This document shows positions 24,072 to 38,936 of a DNA stretch of 64,000 bases, piece after piece. This DNA comes from an uncultured Bryobacterales bacterium. Its GTDB lineage: Bacteria > Acidobacteriota > Terriglobia > Bryobacterales > UBA6623. The DNA is taken from positions 2,056,471-2,120,470 of the forward strand of contig OX638379.1 in the NCBI GenBank assembly GCA_951813605.1. The letters run 5' to 3'. Each line of letters opens with the position of its first letter. Within the stretch, counting starts at the first letter, position 1. A program made the position numbers and the translations under genes. Under the pieces are notes generated by a model, which saw only the letters and a list, made by a program, of their open reading frames with translations, searched no databases and was not told the origin of the DNA.

Positions 24072-25124
24072 CTAGCCAAGCCCGAGCGCTTCGGCGATGC
24101 TGCTTGCGACAGAACTCGCCAGCGGGGGAGGCACGGCGTTGGCGATCTGACGATGCTGGTCGAGGTCGCGAACTTGCCCTGTCCGACCCCGGATCGGACC
24201 GAGCAGCACATGCTTGTCAGGAAAGCCCTGAATACGAGCGGCTTCTCGCGGAGTGATGTAGCGATCCTCTAATGGGTGGAAGAAGATTTCTCCGCAAGCA
24301 ATCGTCAGCGAGGTCAAGTTGCGGTCGAGTCTTCTGAACTTAGTCGAGTCCCTCTTGGTGAGGTTCATTAAGACACTGGGGGGAACATTCGGCACTCTGG
24401 CGAGCCACGAACCCTCCGGAACGAACGAAATCCGTTCACGGTCGCGGGGAGGCGTTACGTCCACATGGTTCGGCACTGGAGGAACCTCGTCCCTGGGGAC
24501 AGGCTGCGGCAGACCGCTGAGGACTTCGCCAACGGTTGGAGCGCTCACCGCCCGGCTCGGGAAGCGAAACGCCTGACCCGCTGGGACGCACACCAGAATC
24601 GCGCGGCGGCGCGATTGGGCGACTCCGTAGAACGCCGTGTTCAGAACACGCGCATGGACATCGTATCCGAGCGCGGCAAATTCACCCTCCAGGGTCGCGA
24701 TCGTCGATTCTCCGCCGGGCCGGCAAGAGCGCAGGAAAGCTGGCAATTGCTCGACGAGAATCGCTGTCGGCCTGAGCAGCCTTGCGAACCGAACAATCTC
24801 GTGGATCAGGCCCCCTCGGTCGTCGTGCCAGCCCCGGCGCTCGCCCGTCAGCCAAGATGACTGGCACGGCGGACCACCGTACAGCAGACTGACCCCGCCG
24901 GGGCGCATACCGAAGATCTCGAGAATCCTCTCTGGACTCACCGCACGGACATCGACCTGCCAGACGGTCTTTCGCCTGGCGTTGCGACGCAGAGTTGCCG
25001 CGCAGTGAATGTCGGATTCGATCGCACAGATTGTCTTGTAGCCGGCATTGTCGACGCCGATGTCCAGTCCGCCTGCCCCGGAAAAAAGACTGACGGCCGG
25101 ATGCTCTGCGGTACGATTCGTCAT
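24072..25124 (-). CDS. DNA cytosine-5 methyltransferase
   Basis: A 350-aa methylase with the ordered C5 motifs. Motif I is AVSLFSGAGGLDIG, motif IV YGGPPCQSSW with catalytic Cys87, and motif VI appears as LVEQLPAF instead of the usual ENV. Motif VIII is VAQSRRRAILV, and IX/X are TPREAARIQGFPD and QIANAVPPPLA. It transfers a methyl group to cytosine in a specific DNA site that cannot be predicted here. The start at 25124 is preferred: GGGAGG lies about 10 bp upstream. The gene just upstream on the same strand is vsr, and no restriction endonuclease gene is visible nearby. Confidence 0.93.
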   Translation of the reverse strand: MTNRTAEHPAVSLFSGAGGLDIGVDNAGYKTICAIESDIHCAATLRRNARRKTVWQVDVRAVSPERILEIFGMRPGGVSLLYGGPPCQSSWLTGERRGWHDDRGGLIHEIVRFARLLRPTAILVEQLPAFLRSCRPGGESTIATLEGEFAALGYDVHARVLNTAFYGVAQSRRRAILVCVPAGQAFRFPSRAVSAPTVGEVLSGLPQPVPRDEVPPVPNHVDVTPPRDRERISFVPEGSWLARVPNVPPSVLMNLTKRDSTKFRRLDRNLTSLTIACGEIFFHPLEDRYITPREAARIQGFPDKHVLLGPIRGRTGQVRDLDQHRQIANAVPPPLASSVASSIAEALGLG

Positions 25125-25350
25125 CTTCCAAGCACCTCCCAAATCTCCGGTCTGAGCACCGGTCCGAGCGGCATCTCGGCACCCTCGTCGTCGTTGCGAG
25201 GCGCCAAAGGCTCGGGAGTCGTCACCGAAAGCAGCGCACCTTTACGACTGACAGAGCTACCGCGTTTCGGAACTGCACCGCGAACTGGCGACAGTTGGAC
25301 CAGAATGAAAACATGGCACTACTTACGATACAGCAGCACAACTAGTCGGT

Positions 25351-25785
25351 CTACTCGAGTTTCGTTTTTTTATCGCTTAAACCATCCAAAAAGAACGTGA
25401 CCCTGTCGATAAGAGCGGCGGTGTCCTTGATCTCACACTCCCAGACGACCATCACGCTCCAGCCGAGTTTGTTGAGCTTCGCCTGGTTTTCCGCGTCCCG
25501 CTCCTTGTTTCGCTCCAGCTTCGGCAGCCAGTACTCTTCGCGGGACGTTGGCGCTCGCCCGTAACGGCAAGTGTGAGCGTGCCAGAAGCAACCATGCACG
25601 AAGATGATCTTCTTGCGCCCGCCAAACACCAGATCGGGGCGGCCCGGCAGGCCCTTCCTGTGCAAGCGATAGCGGTAGCCCAACCGGTGCACGAGGCGGC
25701 GAACAGCCATTTCCGGCGCTGTGTCCTTGCTTTTGATCGCTTGCATCACGCGGCGCCGCTGTTCGGGTGTGAGCCAATCCGCCAT
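25351..25785 (-). CDS. vsr: Very short patch repair endonuclease
   Basis: A 144-aa T:G mismatch endonuclease. Residue positions coincide with the characterised E. coli enzyme: Asp51 in GRPDLVFGG and His64 and His69 in FVHGCFWHAH. The N-terminal LTPEQRRRVMQAIKSKDT is the family start. Vsr nicks 5' of T in T:G mismatches created by deamination of 5-methylcytosine, so its position upstream of the cytosine methylase is functional. Start at MADWLTPEQ (25785). The 226 bp between the two genes hold no supported gene. Confidence 0.95.
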   Translation of the reverse strand: MADWLTPEQRRRVMQAIKSKDTAPEMAVRRLVHRLGYRYRLHRKGLPGRPDLVFGGRKKIIFVHGCFWHAHTCRYGRAPTSREEYWLPKLERNKERDAENQAKLNKLGWSVMVVWECEIKDTAALIDRVTFFLDGLSDKKTKLE

Positions 25786-25971
25786 GCGGCATCCACTGTA
25801 GACCAAGTGCAGTCAGGCGGGCGTTCGGGTCTTCAGGGGTGAACGCGTCCCGTTGAAATCCGGCCAGCGCGCACCCGAACACACGCGGCTGCCCATGGAT
25901 GCTTACGGCACCGTCCAGCGCTCCGTGAACGAAGACCGCTAGTCGGGCACCCTCGGTAGAATGGTGGATTC

Positions 25972-32562: not shown

Positions 32563-33531
32563 TCAATCCTCCGTCGACTCGCCATCCGCGAAAGCCTTGC
32601 TGCCCTTGGACGCCCCGACAAACTGCCAGCCGAAGCGGCCCTTGATGCACAGGTTTCCCGAAGTCACTTCCTGATCCATCGGAGAGCTAGTCTTGACGAT
32701 TTGATTGTCCTGCGTGTGCAGGGTCAGCGTGCACCCCACACCGCAGTAAGGGCAGATCGTATCAGTCGTCTGTTGTTTCGACTCGTCCCATTCACCTGAC
32801 TCTCGCAAATCGTGCTCGCTCTTGAACATCAGAGCGCCGGTCGGACAAACTCCGATGCAATTGCCGCAATAGACGCATGCAGAGTCAGGAAGCGGCACGT
32901 CGAATTCGGTGGCAATCTTTGCATCGAATCCACGGCCCGCAACCGCTATAGCGAACGTGTTCTGCGCGTCCACGCCGCAAGCTTCGACGCACTTGTAACA
33001 AAGAATGCACTTGGAGTAGTCGCGAATGTACAGATCGTTGTCTATCTTGGGGGGCTGGGCTTGGGAGGCTGCGGGCCTGCCGTCGTCGCCGTAGCGCTCG
33101 GAGTCGGCACCGTAGCGCTCCATGTAGTCCTGCAGCTCGGGTGCCGTCGAGACGTCGGTGCTGGAAGCCAGAAACTCCAGTACCATGCGGCGACTAAGGC
33201 GAACTCTTTCGGAATCGGTGCGAATCGACATGCCCGGCTCCGCCTTGCGCGAGCAGGCCGGAACGAGCGTCCGCGAACCTTCCAATTCCACCACGCATAC
33301 CCGGCAGACATTGACGGGTTCGAGCGTCTCCAAATAGCAGAGCGTCGGCGTATCGACACCGCGCTGCCGGCACGCGTCGAGCAGGGTCGAACCGTCGGGT
33401 ACCGTCACGCTCGTCCCATCCACAGTCACTTCGACGGGCGGGCGGACTTTCCGCGCTGGCGCCTTCGGCACCGGTCCGCGCGGGATGGGAATCGTTAGAC
33501 TCGGCGCGTCGGCGCTGGATTGGTCACTCAC
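32563..33531 (-). CDS. Formate dehydrogenase Fe-S subunit: NuoG-like N-terminal clusters plus the split-off FdhA N-terminal 4Fe-4S domain
   Basis: A 322-aa protein. After a Pro-rich start come a [2Fe-2S] ferredoxin domain (TLCYLE, NVCRVCVVELEG, ending VPAC), a helical NuoG-like segment, and a double [4Fe-4S] module (CILCYKCVEACG and CVYCGNCIGVCPTGAL). The last 70 residues, ICPYCGVGCTL through GNLCIKGRFGWQFVGA, are the CxxCxxxC...C domain that normally opens the molybdenum/tungsten catalytic chain. Yet the protein stops there, with no catalytic domain. The start is GTG 33531, overlapping the NuoEF-type gene stop (GTGA) with an AGGAG about 7 bp upstream. It carries electrons between the catalytic and flavin subunits. 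Confidence 0.88.
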   Translation of the reverse strand: MSDQSSADAPSLTIPIPRGPVPKAPARKVRPPVEVTVDGTSVTVPDGSTLLDACRQRGVDTPTLCYLETLEPVNVCRVCVVELEGSRTLVPACSRKAEPGMSIRTDSERVRLSRRMVLEFLASSTDVSTAPELQDYMERYGADSERYGDDGRPAASQAQPPKIDNDLYIRDYSKCILCYKCVEACGVDAQNTFAIAVAGRGFDAKIATEFDVPLPDSACVYCGNCIGVCPTGALMFKSEHDLRESGEWDESKQQTTDTICPYCGVGCTLTLHTQDNQIVKTSSPMDQEVTSGNLCIKGRFGWQFVGASKGSKAFADGESTED

Positions 33532-35375
33532 TGGGTGCTCCTGGAAAAGATTGGAAAACGAGCCAAGGCCGAGTCCACTGCGCTGGCGGCCGTGTGTCCG
33601 AGACCGCAAATCGAAGCGTCGCTCATCACTTGCGAGATGTCTTTCAAGAGCAACCGTTCCTGATCGACAGAACCGATGGGGTGCCCGGAGTGCAAGCGCT
33701 CGAGAAGCTCTTGCTGTCGAACCGTCCCGACGCGACACGGGACACACTGGCCGCAGCTCTCGTCGCGGAAGAAATCGGCTATACGCAGCAGGATGCGGCC
33801 GAGATCTACGCTGTCGTCGAACGGCATGACGACCGCGGAGCCCACGGTGGCACCGATCGCGCGCATCCCTTCAAAGGTAAACGGAGCGTCGAGTTCATCC
33901 GGTGCAAGAAACGACCCGGCCGCTCCACCGACAAGCACCGCTTGGAGTCGCCCTGTGCCGGAGACGCCTCCGGCAAGGTCGATCAGATCGCGCACCGACA
34001 CACCGAACTCGGCCTCGTATACGCCTGGTCGGGCGAGGTGGCCCGAAAGGCAGAATAGCTTGGGGCCAGAGGACCGCTCGGTGCCTACTGCCGCGAATGC
34101 GTCCCCGCCCCGGAGGAGTATCGGTGGAACATTCGCTAGCGTCTCTACGTTGTTCACCAGCGTGGGCTTGCCAAACAGGCCGGCTTGAGTCGGATAAGGC
34201 GGCTTGTTGCGGGGCTCGCCGCGAAAACCCTCAATCGAGTTGAAAAGGGCCGTCTCTTCGCCGCAAATGTAGGCTCCTGCGCCCCGCCTGATCTCGATAG
34301 GGCAGCACAATTCCAGGAGACCCGCTGCGTCGAAGTCGTCAATCGCGGCCTGGAGCCGTTCCGTGGCCCTGGGGTATTCTCCGCGAACGTAGACGTAAGC
34401 CCGCTCGCAGCCCGAGGCGAACGACGCGATTGCCATCGATTCGACCACGGCATACGGATCCCCCTCCATCAGGACACGGTCCTTGAAAGTGCCGGGCTCG
34501 GATTCGTCAGCGTTGCAAACCAAGTACTTGGGTCCGGAAGCCGACGCGACGGCACGCCACTTGATGCCTGTCGGGAAGGCGGCGCCACCGCGACCCACAA
34601 GCTTTGACGCTTCGACCTGCCGTAGCACCCAATCAGCGCCCTCTTGGAGCGCGAGCTCCAGAGCATCGAGGCCGCCGCTATTCCGATAGGCATCCAAGCT
34701 CTCGGCGCCGGATGACCCGATCCGGCGCAGCAACTCAAGCGATGGTTCCCCTGCTTGAGGCACCGACGATTCGACAGGGCATGTATCAGTAAGCCCGGGG
34801 CGGCCACTGCTTAGGCAGGCCGACACGTCCGGCTCATCGGAGGGGGCAAGCACGCGATTCCAAGGCCGCTCGCCGGATCCTGTGACCAGGACTGCGGGAG
34901 AGCGCTCGCACAGGCCGAGACACGGGCTGCGGACCCAAGTCGCCGGACCATCGTCGGAGGAACTTCCCGCAGGCCCTAGGCTCCGCTCCAGCGCCGAGCA
35001 CAGCTCATTTGCGCCCTTGGCTTGGCATGCGATGTCGTCGCAGACACGGGCCACTACCGGCGAATGCCTCGCCAGCGAGAACATGTCGTAGAAGTCGGCC
35101 ACTCCGTACGCCTCGGCCGGAGGAACTTTCAGCCTCTCGCAGGCGTAATTCAGAGCGCCGGGGCTGATCCAGCCAATTCGCCCGTGAATTGCGTGCAGGA
35201 CCGGCAAAAGCAGGTGCCGCTGACCGGAGGTGCGATGACCGCTCTCTGAGGTCTGGCCTTGGGATTTGTCAGAGCGGGTCCCCCCAGCCCAACGCGACTC
35301 GGCAGGCCCGAGAAGGGCATCGACCGCCTGCCGCTCGGTTTCGCTTGGTGTGTCCGAAGTGAAGTGAAGATCCAC
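33528..35375 (-). CDS. NuoE-NuoF fusion, NAD(H)-binding flavoprotein subunit of formate dehydrogenase
   Basis: A 615-aa fusion of two electron-transfer modules. The NuoE-like thioredoxin-fold part (about 45-190) carries a 2Fe-2S set in CDDIACQAKG and SPCLGLCERSP. The NuoF-like part follows with the FMN/NADH segments GRGGAAFPTGIKWRAV, CNADESEPGTFKDR and GAGAYICGEETAL, then the [4Fe-4S] motif ESCGQCVPCRVG. In NAD-dependent formate dehydrogenases these modules pass electrons to NAD. The gene lies between the catalytic gene (about 95 bp upstream) and the Fe-S gene (4-bp overlap). GTG 35375 follows GGGAGG; TTG 35378 is an alternative. Confidence 0.93.
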   Translation of the reverse strand: MDLHFTSDTPSETERQAVDALLGPAESRWAGGTRSDKSQGQTSESGHRTSGQRHLLLPVLHAIHGRIGWISPGALNYACERLKVPPAEAYGVADFYDMFSLARHSPVVARVCDDIACQAKGANELCSALERSLGPAGSSSDDGPATWVRSPCLGLCERSPAVLVTGSGERPWNRVLAPSDEPDVSACLSSGRPGLTDTCPVESSVPQAGEPSLELLRRIGSSGAESLDAYRNSGGLDALELALQEGADWVLRQVEASKLVGRGGAAFPTGIKWRAVASASGPKYLVCNADESEPGTFKDRVLMEGDPYAVVESMAIASFASGCERAYVYVRGEYPRATERLQAAIDDFDAAGLLELCCPIEIRRGAGAYICGEETALFNSIEGFRGEPRNKPPYPTQAGLFGKPTLVNNVETLANVPPILLRGGDAFAAVGTERSSGPKLFCLSGHLARPGVYEAEFGVSVRDLIDLAGGVSGTGRLQAVLVGGAAGSFLAPDELDAPFTFEGMRAIGATVGSAVVMPFDDSVDLGRILLRIADFFRDESCGQCVPCRVGTVRQQELLERLHSGHPIGSVDQERLLLKDISQVMSDASICGLGHTAASAVDSALARFPIFSRSTQ

Positions 35376-35471
35376 CAACCCTCCCTGGTTTCCTTGAGCC
35401 TATTCGCGTTGTTGCAATGGCGGATTGGCCAGGAAACCGAACCCGCACGCCGGGCCGCAGCATACCACCGG

Positions 35472-37379
35472 CTACGGCGAACCCATCTTATCAATGCGAA
35501 TGGCTGTCGCCTTGAATTCGGCGGTTCCCGACTTCGGATCGACGGCGTCGATCGTCAGCTTGTTGGTGTCGACCTGATCGGGAAAGTGGGTTGTCATGAA
35601 CGCAAGCCCCGGACGCAATCCGGGGTCGAACCGAACCGGTGCAACAACCGATCCACGGCGGGAGCTCACGATGACCTCCTCGAACTCGTCCAAGCCATGC
35701 CGTTCGCCGTCCTCCGGAGAGAGATCCAACGTCTCCCCCCACCGAAGGGGGGAAGAGTAGAGGCCGGTTTGAACTCCGGTGTTGTACGAGTCAAGCCTCC
35801 TGCCGGTAGTCAGACGGATGGGGAATTCCTCGTCAAGCGCGTCCACAGGCGGCCTATGCTCGATAGCGGCAAATGGCGCGCGCGGGCCCACCCGAGGCCG
35901 GGCCCAGAGGCGTCCGTGCAGGAACAGCTCGCCCGGATGCGACTCGTCATAGCAGGGCCAGCGAATGCCGTCCAGCTTCTCTAGACGCTCGTAACTCATG
36001 CCCGCGTGCATCGGGCTCAGCGTGCGCAGTTCGTCCCACAAGGTCCTTGCGTCAGCCTCTCCCCAATCGTGCCCGAGGCGCTTGGCGAGATCGAAGATGA
36101 TCCGCATGTCATCGCGAGCGCCGGGCGGGGGTTGCACGGCTCGCCGCACGCGCTGCACCTTTCGTTCACTGCTGGTCACCGTGCCCTCGGACTCGGCCCA
36201 CCCCGCTTGGGCCGGCAGGACGAGGTCGGCGATCTCGGCAGTTTGGGTAAGGAAAAGGTCCTGCACCACCAGAAAGTCCAAGCCTTCCATCAGGCGGAGC
36301 GCACGGTTCTTGTCGGCTTCCGAGCTGACCGGATTCTCGCCCAGGACATAGAGTGTGGTCAGATCGCCGCGCTCCATTGCGTCAAACATCCCGCTCAGGT
36401 GCCAGCCCCTCCTGGGCGGGATCTTGCAGTTCCAAGCGGCCTCGAACTTGGCTCGAAGCTCGTCGTTTTCAAGGTGCTGGAATCCCGTGAGACGATCGGG
36501 CAGGGCTCCCATGTCGCCGCCTCCCTGCACGTTATTCTGGCCGCGCAGCGGACACAGGCCCGATCCGTAGCGTCCGACATGGCCTGTGAGGAGGGCTAGG
36601 TTGATTAACGCGCGGACATTGTCCACCGCGTTGTGATGCTCGGTGATGCCGAGCGTCCAGCACAGCTGGGCGGTGGAGGCTTTGGCGTAGGAATGAGCAA
36701 GGTCCCTAATTGCTTCGCGCGGCACCCCGGTCTCTCGTTCGGCGTACTCGAGAGTGAAGTCGCTTACCGCGTCACAATATGCGTCGAACCCGCTCGTTGC
36801 GTGCTCAATAAAGAAACGATTCTCCAAGCCGGCCTCGAGGATCTCCCGGCCTACGGCGTTGGCAAGAACGATGTCAGTGCCTACGTCGATGCCTAGCCAG
36901 CGGTCGGACCATTGGGCCGAACTGGTCCGGCGAGGGTCTACCGTAAACAGCGAGGCACCGTTGTGAATTCCCTTCAGGACGTGGTGGAAATAGATTGGAT
37001 GCGTCTCGCGGGCATTTGAGCCCCACAGGACGATCAGGTCCGTATTCTCGACTTCCTCGTACGAGCTGGTGCCGCCTCCGGCCCCGAATGCTGCCGCCAG
37101 ACCGGCGACGCTCGGAGCGTGTCAAGTTCGGTTGCAACTGTCGATGTTGTTGCTTCCAATGACACTCCGAACAAACTTCTGCGCGGCGAAGTTCAACTCG
37201 TTTGTTGTTTTCGAGCAACTGAACATTCCGAAGGATTTCGGAGCGCCGCGGTCGATAGCGAGCTGGAAGGCATTGGCAGCCAAGTCCAAGGCCTCGTCCC
37301 AAGTACTAGGTTGCAAAGACCCATCCCGCCGAACGAGGGGTTCCGTCAGACGCACACTGCGCTTGGAGTGGCTGGCCAT
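35472..37379 (-). CDS. Formate dehydrogenase catalytic subunit, selenoprotein (in-frame TGA at 37122-37124)
   Basis: Reading through one TGA joins two same-frame segments into a roughly 635-aa Mo/W-bisMGD oxidoreductase. Before the TGA: RLTEPLVRRDGSLQPSTWDEA and GSNNIDSCNRT. After it: HAPSVAGLAAAFGAGG. This is exactly the FdhF active-site context, with selenocysteine at residue 86. Later domains are intact (LWGSNARETHP, TGHVGRYGSGLCPLRGQNN, the C-terminal PDQVDTNKLTIDAVDP). It lacks the N-terminal 4Fe-4S domain, which is found in the Fe-S gene of this operon. A conventional gene finder would split it at 37122. The N-terminal start (ATG 37379 or GTG 37400) is uncertain. It oxidises formate, or reduces CO2. 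Confidence 0.85.
37085..37124 (-). promoter_or_regulatory. Bacterial SECIS element at the formate dehydrogenase UGA
   Basis: Directly 3' of the TGA the RNA can form a 6-bp stem GUCGCC/GGCGGC closed by the loop GGUCU. E. coli fdhF has the loop GGUCU flanked by GC pairs at the same distance: the GGU codon is the seventh codon after UGA in both. This hairpin recruits SelB-Sec-tRNA so the stop is read as selenocysteine. Confidence 0.75.
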
Positions 37380-37472: not shown

Positions 37473-38936
37473 ATGAACAGGCAATTCTGTGCGCTCCTGG
37501 CGGTGGTGCTTGCGGGGTGCGGTCAGGCCCCGCCCGAGCGGCCTAACGTCATCATCATGATGGCGGACGATCTGGGATGGGGCGACGTCGGAGCCAACGG
37601 CGGCAAGGTAATCCAGACGCCGCACATCGACGCTCTGGCGGAGCAAGGGGTGCTACTCACCGATGGCTACGTGTCCGCGGCAGTCTGCAGCCCGTCGCGT
37701 GCCGGCTTGTACACAGGCAGGCACCAGCAGCGACACGGGTTCGAATACAACATCGCGGGGCGTGACACGGACATGGGCATGTCGATCGAGGAGACCACGA
37801 TCGCCGACATGGTGCGCGAACAGGGATATGCATCTGGATTGATCGGCAAGTGGCACCTTGGGAAGCGCAAGGAACATCACCCGCTCAGCCGCGGTTTCGA
37901 CGAGTACTACGGCATGCTGGCGGGAGCGTCGACTTACATCGATTCCAGAAAAGAGGGCGTGGAGTCATGGCCGCCAAACAATGCTCCGACGGTTCGATCC
38001 GAAGGCAACGCGATTTACGACGGACGGGACCCGGTCGAAGTGGAGGAATACATCACGGACGTCTTTCGTGACAAGGCGCTGGACTTCATCGAGAGACACC
38101 GCGCCGAGCGGTTCTTTCTCATGCTCACGCCCAACGCTCCTCACACCCCGCTGCAGGCGACCAAGGAGTATCTGGACCGGTACCGCCACCTCGAAAACGA
38201 CAGCGAGCGCATCTATTCCGCGATGGTCGCAGCCGTGGACGACTATGTCGGAGCTGTGACCGCCAAGCTGCGCGAGCACGGACTCGAAGAGAACACGCTC
38301 ATGGTGTTCCTGTCGGATAACGGATGCGCTGGATAGGTGGTCGAGCGCTGCTCGAACGGACCTCTCAGAGGCAACAAGCGCTACTACTGGGACGGTGGAA
38401 TCCGCATTCCGTTCATCGCGAAATGGCCCGCGGGCGTTCCCAACGGCGTCAAGTACAGCCAGCCAGTGATTTCGCTGGATCTGTTCGCGACGGTGGCCGC
38501 GGCTGTGGGATCGGACGTGACGGCGCAGGATAGCATCAACCTGCTCCCACACTTGCGAGGGGAAATGGACGAAGCTCCCCACGAATACCTGTTCTGGAGG
38601 GCAAAGCCCAACGTCGCGGTTCGCAAGGGCAACTGGAAACTCTGGAAAGTCAACAAGAGCGATCTCGACGCGACCGCGATCACCGACCGCGCCGCACGAC
38701 GGCTGCCGATGCAGGCTTGGCCGCAAGACTCGCCGCTTGGGCAGATGACGCTCCTGTACGACCTATCCAACGACATCGGCGAGCTGACAAACGTCGCGAG
38801 CAACAATCCGGACGTTGTGGCGGACCTTGAAGCCGCGATCGAGGCATGGGACGGGGAGATGGGCGAACCAATGTGGCCGGCATTCCGCTCGACGCTGGAT
38901 GAAATTGACGGTCAGATGGTGCATCTGTTCTTCTGA
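37473..38936 (+). pseudogene. Sulfatase lipoprotein interrupted by an in-frame amber (TAG) codon
   Basis: Two same-frame pieces of one arylsulfatase-type gene, 287 codons and then 200 codons, with a single TAG at 38334-38336 between SDNGCAG and VVERCSNGPLRG. The N-terminal half has a lipobox (LAGC, Cys16), the metal-binding ADDLGWGD and the formylglycine motif CSPSRAG (Cys72). The second half contains GGIRIPFIAKWPAG and the C-terminal subdomain. Both halves look otherwise healthy. The best explanations are a recent nonsense mutation or a sequencing error; suppression cannot be shown. It is divergent from the formate dehydrogenase gene. Confidence 0.85.

Follow-up and report, generated by a model that had tools for sequence, protein, structure and literature searches.

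An in-frame TGA in a formate dehydrogenase gene

The window analyzed here is a stretch of 64,000 nucleotides from the genome of an uncultured Bryobacterales bacterium. On its minus strand, it carries a gene resembling those for the catalytic chain of formate dehydrogenase (FDH), with a TGA inside its reading frame. Is this codon read as selenocysteine (Sec) or as a stop, and what kind of enzyme do the gene and its neighbors encode? The gene and the codon are as follows.

35472 to 37379, minus strand: fdhA2, predicted FDH catalytic chain without the N-terminal [4Fe-4S] segment, 635 amino acids (aa) with Sec at residue 86
37122 to 37124, minus strand: UGA predicted to encode Sec86, the equivalent of Sec140 of FdhF, from alignment and from conservation across loci

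According to a preliminary description of this DNA, the TGA lies in frame after GSNNIDSCNRT and the frame continues beyond it. Indeed, the frame runs from an ATG at 37379 through the TGA at 37124 to 37122 to a TAG at 35474 to 35472, yielding 635 residues when TGA is translated as U, and no further stop interrupts it. Around the TGA, the translation reads GSNNIDSCNRT-U-HAPSVAGLAAAFGAGG. A profile search found the PF00384 and PF01568 domains in fdhA2. Its context had been likened to that of the Sec residue of FdhF, and the region was aligned with Sec- and Cys-type relatives. By blastp, residues 10 to 633 of fdhA2 aligned to residues 61 to 689 of Escherichia coli FdhF with 34.6% identity; Sec86 fell on residue 140, and the RGQ and U-H catalytic motifs were aligned as well. 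In E. coli fdhF, the UGA is codon 140 and is followed by HGPSVAGL. The match of U86-H-A-P with U140-H-G-P thus puts the in-frame UGA at the position of the Mo/W ligand, followed by HxP. Among the 72 related loci readable at this position, 70 had TGA and 2 had TGC. As judged from these alignments, the in-frame TGA is confirmed as a genuine Sec codon in a formate dehydrogenase gene. Sec in a formate dehydrogenase is in itself ordinary textbook knowledge, FdhA being the selenoprotein found most widely in bacteria (PMC1794560, PMC13188914).

A hairpin downstream of the UGA

The region 3' of the TGA had been proposed to form a 6-bp stem with the loop GGUCU, at the same codon distance as in E. coli fdhF. 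This region was folded and compared with E. coli fdhF, and the stem and the GGUCU loop were recovered in the same register.

37093 to 37109, minus strand: bSECIS apical hairpin, a 6-bp stem with loop GGUCU, from the fold, covariation, frozen third positions and the E. coli register

The hairpin GUCGCC-GGUCU-GGCGGC occupies nucleotides 16 to 32 counted from the U of the UGA. The loop is found at nucleotides 22 to 26 in both fdhA2 and E. coli fdhF, so the codon distance had been given correctly. The two elements differ in the stem: the SECIS of E. coli fdhF has a bulged U17 and a tighter loop (from knowledge of the family and the fold), whereas in the fdhA2 element a pairing of U17 with A/G31 is predicted, so that the 6-bp stem is uninterrupted. 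The folding energy (-23.8 kcal/mol for 46 nucleotides; z = -2.23, with 5 of 200 shuffles as good) corresponds to a modest z-score and is not convincing alone; the strength of the case lies in the comparison of sequences. When synonymous sequences were sampled under the protein sequence and the codon usage of fdhA2, the stem plus GGTCT appeared in 0.8% of the draws, a figure that applies to this single sequence.

The 6-bp stem was paired in 378 of 378 cells over 63 distinct sequences, three of which showed compensatory C-G to G-C double changes, and its covariation was 0.192, versus 0.155 ± 0.006 in shuffles. Sliding the stem by 1 or 2 bases left 16 to 33% of the positions paired; with a slide of 3 bases, which is a codon shift, the values were 66% and 84%. 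At the codon level, codons 93 and 94 were GGT CTG in all 68 distinct related sequences, valine 91 was GTC in 65, and alanine 95 was GCG in 63 of 66. The remaining conserved glycines of the gene were encoded by GGT in 2 to 29% of the sequences. The third-position entropy of four-fold degenerate residues averaged about 1.4 to 1.7 bits elsewhere in the gene, versus 0 at this site. These sequence comparisons indicate that the hairpin is constrained beyond the protein sequence. A gathering scan of the window against Rfam gave no match, and no Rfam family matched this SECIS. A covariance model built from it had fdhA2 as its sole strong match in the organism's own genome (E = 1.9e-14; next, 0.38), the selenoproteome being probed for this SECIS only, with selenoproteins bearing other SECIS types outside its reach.

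Mechanical calling of open reading frames (ORFs) yields two ORFs, one of 174 aa and another of 451 aa, which starts from a TTG about 98 codons past the TGA, and the neighboring sulfatase gene carries a real nonsense codon. Both observations would suit a UGA that acts as a real stop, in a decaying pseudogene or between two independent ORFs. However, this reading is contradicted by the conservation of the TGA across phyla (70 of the 72 readable loci). Furthermore, conserved residues of the catalytic core continue past the TGA with no other internal stop, the stretch from the TGA to the next start codon being highly conserved and part of that core, and the hairpin is more constrained than the protein requires. 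We consider it extremely unlikely and retain the Sec codon.

The sulfatase gene (PF00884; window positions 37473 to 38936, plus strand) lies divergently beside the FDH operon and has a TAG at 38334 to 38336. It was evaluated as a second recoded gene and rejected: the internal stop is a TAG, and five Bryobacterales or Terriglobia relatives have an intact gene at the same place with Tyr at this position. The TAG therefore does not reflect recoding; it arose by a recent nonsense mutation or through an error in the assembly. Elsewhere in the window (24072 to 25806, minus strand), a C5-cytosine DNA methyltransferase gene adjoins one for a Vsr-like mismatch endonuclease, as judged from the ORF translations.

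Sec machinery of the genome

The presence of selA, selB, selC and selD elsewhere in the genome had been predicted. The organism's own genome is available as one contig of 6.19 Mb, and all four were found in it.

Genome position 1491496: selA, 437 bits
Genome position 88254: selB, 353.5 bits
Genome position 5966232: selD, 291.6 bits
Genome position 324840: tRNA-Sec (selC), 71.2 bits (gathering cut-off, 47), anticodon tca (UCA) by ARAGORN

They are dispersed in the genome, and none is close to the FDH operon. The lack of a complete Sec system, which would have spoken against a Sec codon, is thus excluded. This result also bears on whether the TGA is a sequencing or assembly error in a TGC or TGT Cys codon. 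Two homologues do have TGC at the Sec position, but the TGA is shared by seventy related loci, most of which come from independent MAGs and assemblies, and the genome holds a complete Sec system. An error of this kind, raised in the preliminary description, can be set aside for all practical purposes. SelD (L028, 274 to 2523; 749 aa) is fused behind an NADH-dehydrogenase-like domain, and the SelD motif CRGCASK is of the Cys type, not the Sec type.

A catalytic subunit split between two genes

The gene had been described as an FdhF-type catalytic gene. This holds for a catalytic chain with Sec, but fdhA2 corresponds to FdhF from residue 61 on only; the N-terminal [4Fe-4S] part is encoded by a separate gene, at 32563 to 33531. 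The two other genes of the operon are as follows.

33528 to 35378, minus strand: fdhB, NuoE-NuoF fusion (NADH/FMN diaphorase), 616 aa as listed from a TTG; PF01257, PF01512, PF10531, PF10589
32563 to 33531, minus strand: fdhA1, HoxU/NuoG-like protein (2Fe-2S, 4Fe-4S), 322 aa, with a C-terminal [4Fe-4S] molybdopterin domain; PF13510, PF04879

The three genes are ordered fdhA2, fdhB, fdhA1 on the minus strand, and the GTG start of fdhA1 overlaps the stop of fdhB. The N-terminal [4Fe-4S] segment (FdhF residues 1 to 60) is missing from fdhA2 and forms the C terminus of fdhA1, two genes downstream. Accordingly, PF04879 (Molybdop_Fe4S4) was found on fdhA1 and was absent from fdhA2, the C-terminal domain of fdhA1 aligned to FdhF residues 6 to 52 (E = 1.6e-10), and the TIGR01591 model was divided between the two products, positions 50 to 672 on fdhA2 (598.5 bits) and positions 1 to 50 on fdhA1 (48.4 bits). 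The product of fdhA1 matched HoxU of NAD-reducing hydrogenases over about 205 residues (143 bits) but adds the C-terminal Molybdop_Fe4S4 domain. A NuoE/NuoF-type diaphorase is present in the operon (PF01257, PF01512 and PF10589 at 33528 to 35378), and the NuoG-like Fe-S arm is not fused to the catalytic core, the two being encoded by the separate genes fdhA1 and fdhA2. Judged by these domain matches, the catalytic subunit is split in two genes with its parts in permuted order, a feature that the first reading missed. In the literature searched, with supplementary files and most subscription papers outside its scope, we found no description of a split FDH catalytic subunit.

The A2-B-A1 order is common to the related loci, some of which, mostly from Chloroflexota and Actinomycetota, have a gap of 0.8 to 4 kb between A2 and B. 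In related loci with a complete A1, this protein usually ends 10 to 30 residues past the CxKG of the cluster motif. In several Chloroflexota MAGs, a selD-like gene (by translation) adjoins the split FDH operon (L046, 4118 to 5179; also L055 and L058).

Fused relatives exist, with about 40 to 45% identity; upstream, they have 280 to 500 open codons, the cluster motif among them. The split could thus be only apparent, with the [4Fe-4S] segment joined through an upstream start, a frameshift or splicing. However, in 60 of the 69 loci with the gene start, the open frame upstream of it is shorter than 100 codons, and an in-frame cluster motif upstream of A2 was absent from all split-type loci. The missing segment is intact on fdhA1, which ends shortly past the CxKG, and the A2-B-A1 order rules out a simple frameshift. 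An apparent split is very unlikely, and we keep to a subunit encoded by two genes.

Distribution and phylogeny of the split form

The split form was found in 22 of 297 genomes of the phylum, always with one TGA and with 64 to 100% identity, whereas the fused forms had at most 45% identity, leaving a sharp gap between the two. In a tree of 96 sequences, the 88 split sequences formed one group (100% SH-aLRT; branch length, 0.87) apart from the eight fused ones. The phyla represented include Acidobacteriota, Chloroflexota, Actinomycetota, Planctomycetota, Myxococcota and others, as assigned by record title, a list that contamination of MAGs could slightly inflate. The fdhA2 of the window grouped with Bryobacterales MAGs, the nearest being L049 (85%). 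Two of the fused sequences, L129 and L132, lie on long branches, making the placement of the fused forms unsure without affecting the separateness of the split clade; for this reason, the tree was not used for dating the split. The sequences thus place the split form in one well-supported clade spread over several phyla.

The two split-type genes with TGC (L077, 6001 to 7893; L102, 6001 to 7875) are sister Actinomycetota copies with Cys in place of Sec. In L077, the hairpin is lost (GGG CTC TCG), and no SelB over the curated cut-off was detected in its genome, the best hit (195.9 bits) being in the range of ordinary elongation factors. L102 has Cys, yet both the hairpin and SelB are kept; this may be a recent Sec-to-Cys change, with the hairpin probably a fossil. 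SelB was over the cut-off in all 22 other genomes tested, all of them with TGA. Among the fused homologues, the Cys forms L130, L131 and L133 (TGC) have GGC CTG GCC and no hairpin, whereas four of the five Sec forms have GGT CTG GCG and the fifth keeps the stem with the loop GGGCU. Therefore, the hairpin largely tracks the UGA and not the protein sequence. In the fused Sec homologue L132, in which GGGCU stands for GGUCU and the stem is kept, the base equivalent to U24 of E. coli is changed.

Comparison with known systems

E. coli FdhF shares with fdhA2 the aligned Sec, the HxPSVAGL after it, the register of the GGUCU loop and the bis-MGD pocket. It differs in being a single chain with its own [4Fe-4S] segment, the part that aligns to fdhA1 here, and in having no diaphorase. 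The fused FdhA proteins with a NuoG-like N terminus from the same phylum (L126 to L133) have the same core and cluster motif, with Sec or Cys, and GGUCUGGCG after the UGA is common to four of the five Sec forms; they are single chains of 40 to 45% identity in a separate clade. The alpha chains of the NAD-dependent formate dehydrogenases FdsABG and FdhAB are presumably of the Cys type. These enzymes (R. capsulatus, 6tga; M. extorquens, 7vw6) have the same NuoE/NuoF diaphorase, NuoG-like Fe-S arm and FdhF-like core. In R. capsulatus FdsA (6tg9), residues 20 to 302 of one alpha chain match A1 and residues 308 to 933 match A2, whereas here there are two genes in reversed order, with Sec.

A gene set with nearly equal subunit sizes encodes FDH3 of Actinomycetospora chiangmaiensis. 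As given in the main text of its report, FdhA3 (with Sec), FdhB3 and FdhC3 have 640, 614 and 316 aa, the enzyme is described as cytoplasmic and NAD dependent, its proteins were seen in proteomics, and the strain removes formate in a selenium-dependent manner; that text makes no remark on a split catalytic subunit (PMC7176365). The corresponding sizes here are 635, 616 and 322 aa. Because the subunit sizes match, FDH3 is likely a member of the same lineage.

A related Mo/W oxidoreductase acting on a substrate other than formate was also considered. Taken singly, the two halves fall short of the curated TIGR01591 cut-off of 666.25 bits, with 598.5 and 48.4 bits (the model presumes one chain), and no FdhD was detected (see below). 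Nevertheless, TIGR01591 is by far the best family for fdhA2 (next best, 382.7 bits), the closest homologues of known structure, by sequence, include formate dehydrogenases and the FdhF of a CO2 reductase, and the U-H and RGQ motifs are kept. The Se-dependent formate phenotype reported in the main text of PMC7176365, for a species whose gene set has the same sizes, points the same way. Another substrate is improbable, and the operon would encode an NAD-type formate dehydrogenase.

No FdhD detected

E. coli needs FdhD for its FDHs to be active, according to a review (PMC10609526). In the genome of the window, no FdhD was found by PF02634, nor by TIGR00129 even at E = 10, whereas A. chiangmaiensis, according to its report, has FdhD. 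Among 38 further genomes encoding the split enzyme, 28 had FdhD, and none was detected in the 10 genomes of L030, L031, L034, L037, L039, L040, L049, L105, L106 and L117. Nine of these 10, two of them rated 100% complete, fall in the window's part of the tree, although MAG incompleteness could account for single cases; the genome of L072/L122, in that same part, has FdhD. Within the phylum sample, FdhD was present in 17 of the 22 split-FDH genomes. A search for a substitute among the conserved flanking genes of relatives found only lineage-specific genes. Another sulfur donor may replace FdhD in the lineage of the window. The apparent absence of FdhD is an instance of a known open question, not a contradiction.

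Proposed mechanism and implications

Taken as a whole, the three-gene operon would encode a cytoplasmic-type, NAD-linked Mo/W formate dehydrogenase with Sec as the metal ligand and a split catalytic subunit, a reading to which we give a probability of about 90%. Its basis consists of observed features, namely, the codon, the hairpin, the Sec machinery, the domain split, the operon order and the conservation of all these.

As in the family, Sec would ligate Mo/W in the bis-MGD of this enzyme, and electrons would reach NAD through the proximal [4Fe-4S] cluster, the HoxU-like clusters and FMN. Recoding in the cell would follow the E. coli model, by homology: SelB, bound to the hairpin at GGUCU, would deliver Sec-tRNA to the in-frame UGA. 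The fdhA2 chain, with Sec and the bis-MGD pocket, would then assemble with the C-terminal [4Fe-4S] segment of fdhA1 into one active site made of two chains. Electrons from formate would pass from Mo/W-Sec to this [4Fe-4S] cluster, to the other clusters of fdhA1 and to FMN/NAD on fdhB. We infer that formate is the substrate, NAD the partner and formate oxidation the direction in the cell.

More tentatively, and with somewhat less than even confidence, these enzymes may form a multiphylum lineage of NAD-linked Sec-FDHs with an obligate two-chain active site, the proximal [4Fe-4S] cluster being provided in trans by a HoxU-like subunit, and with the Acidobacteriota subclade of the window matured without FdhD.

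With this organism, the uncultured Acidobacteriota genomes with a Sec system that appears to work increase by one. The split, permuted catalytic subunit, a variant hidden by annotation, is the useful part of the finding. An active site naturally divided between two chains would give a modular handle on formate/CO2 catalysis. Split genes of this type are prone to a double misannotation, with the UGA taken as a stop and the cluster domain labeled as a NuoG/HoxU protein. Counts of formate oxidation among the uncultured Acidobacteriota, Chloroflexota and Actinomycetota may consequently be too low.
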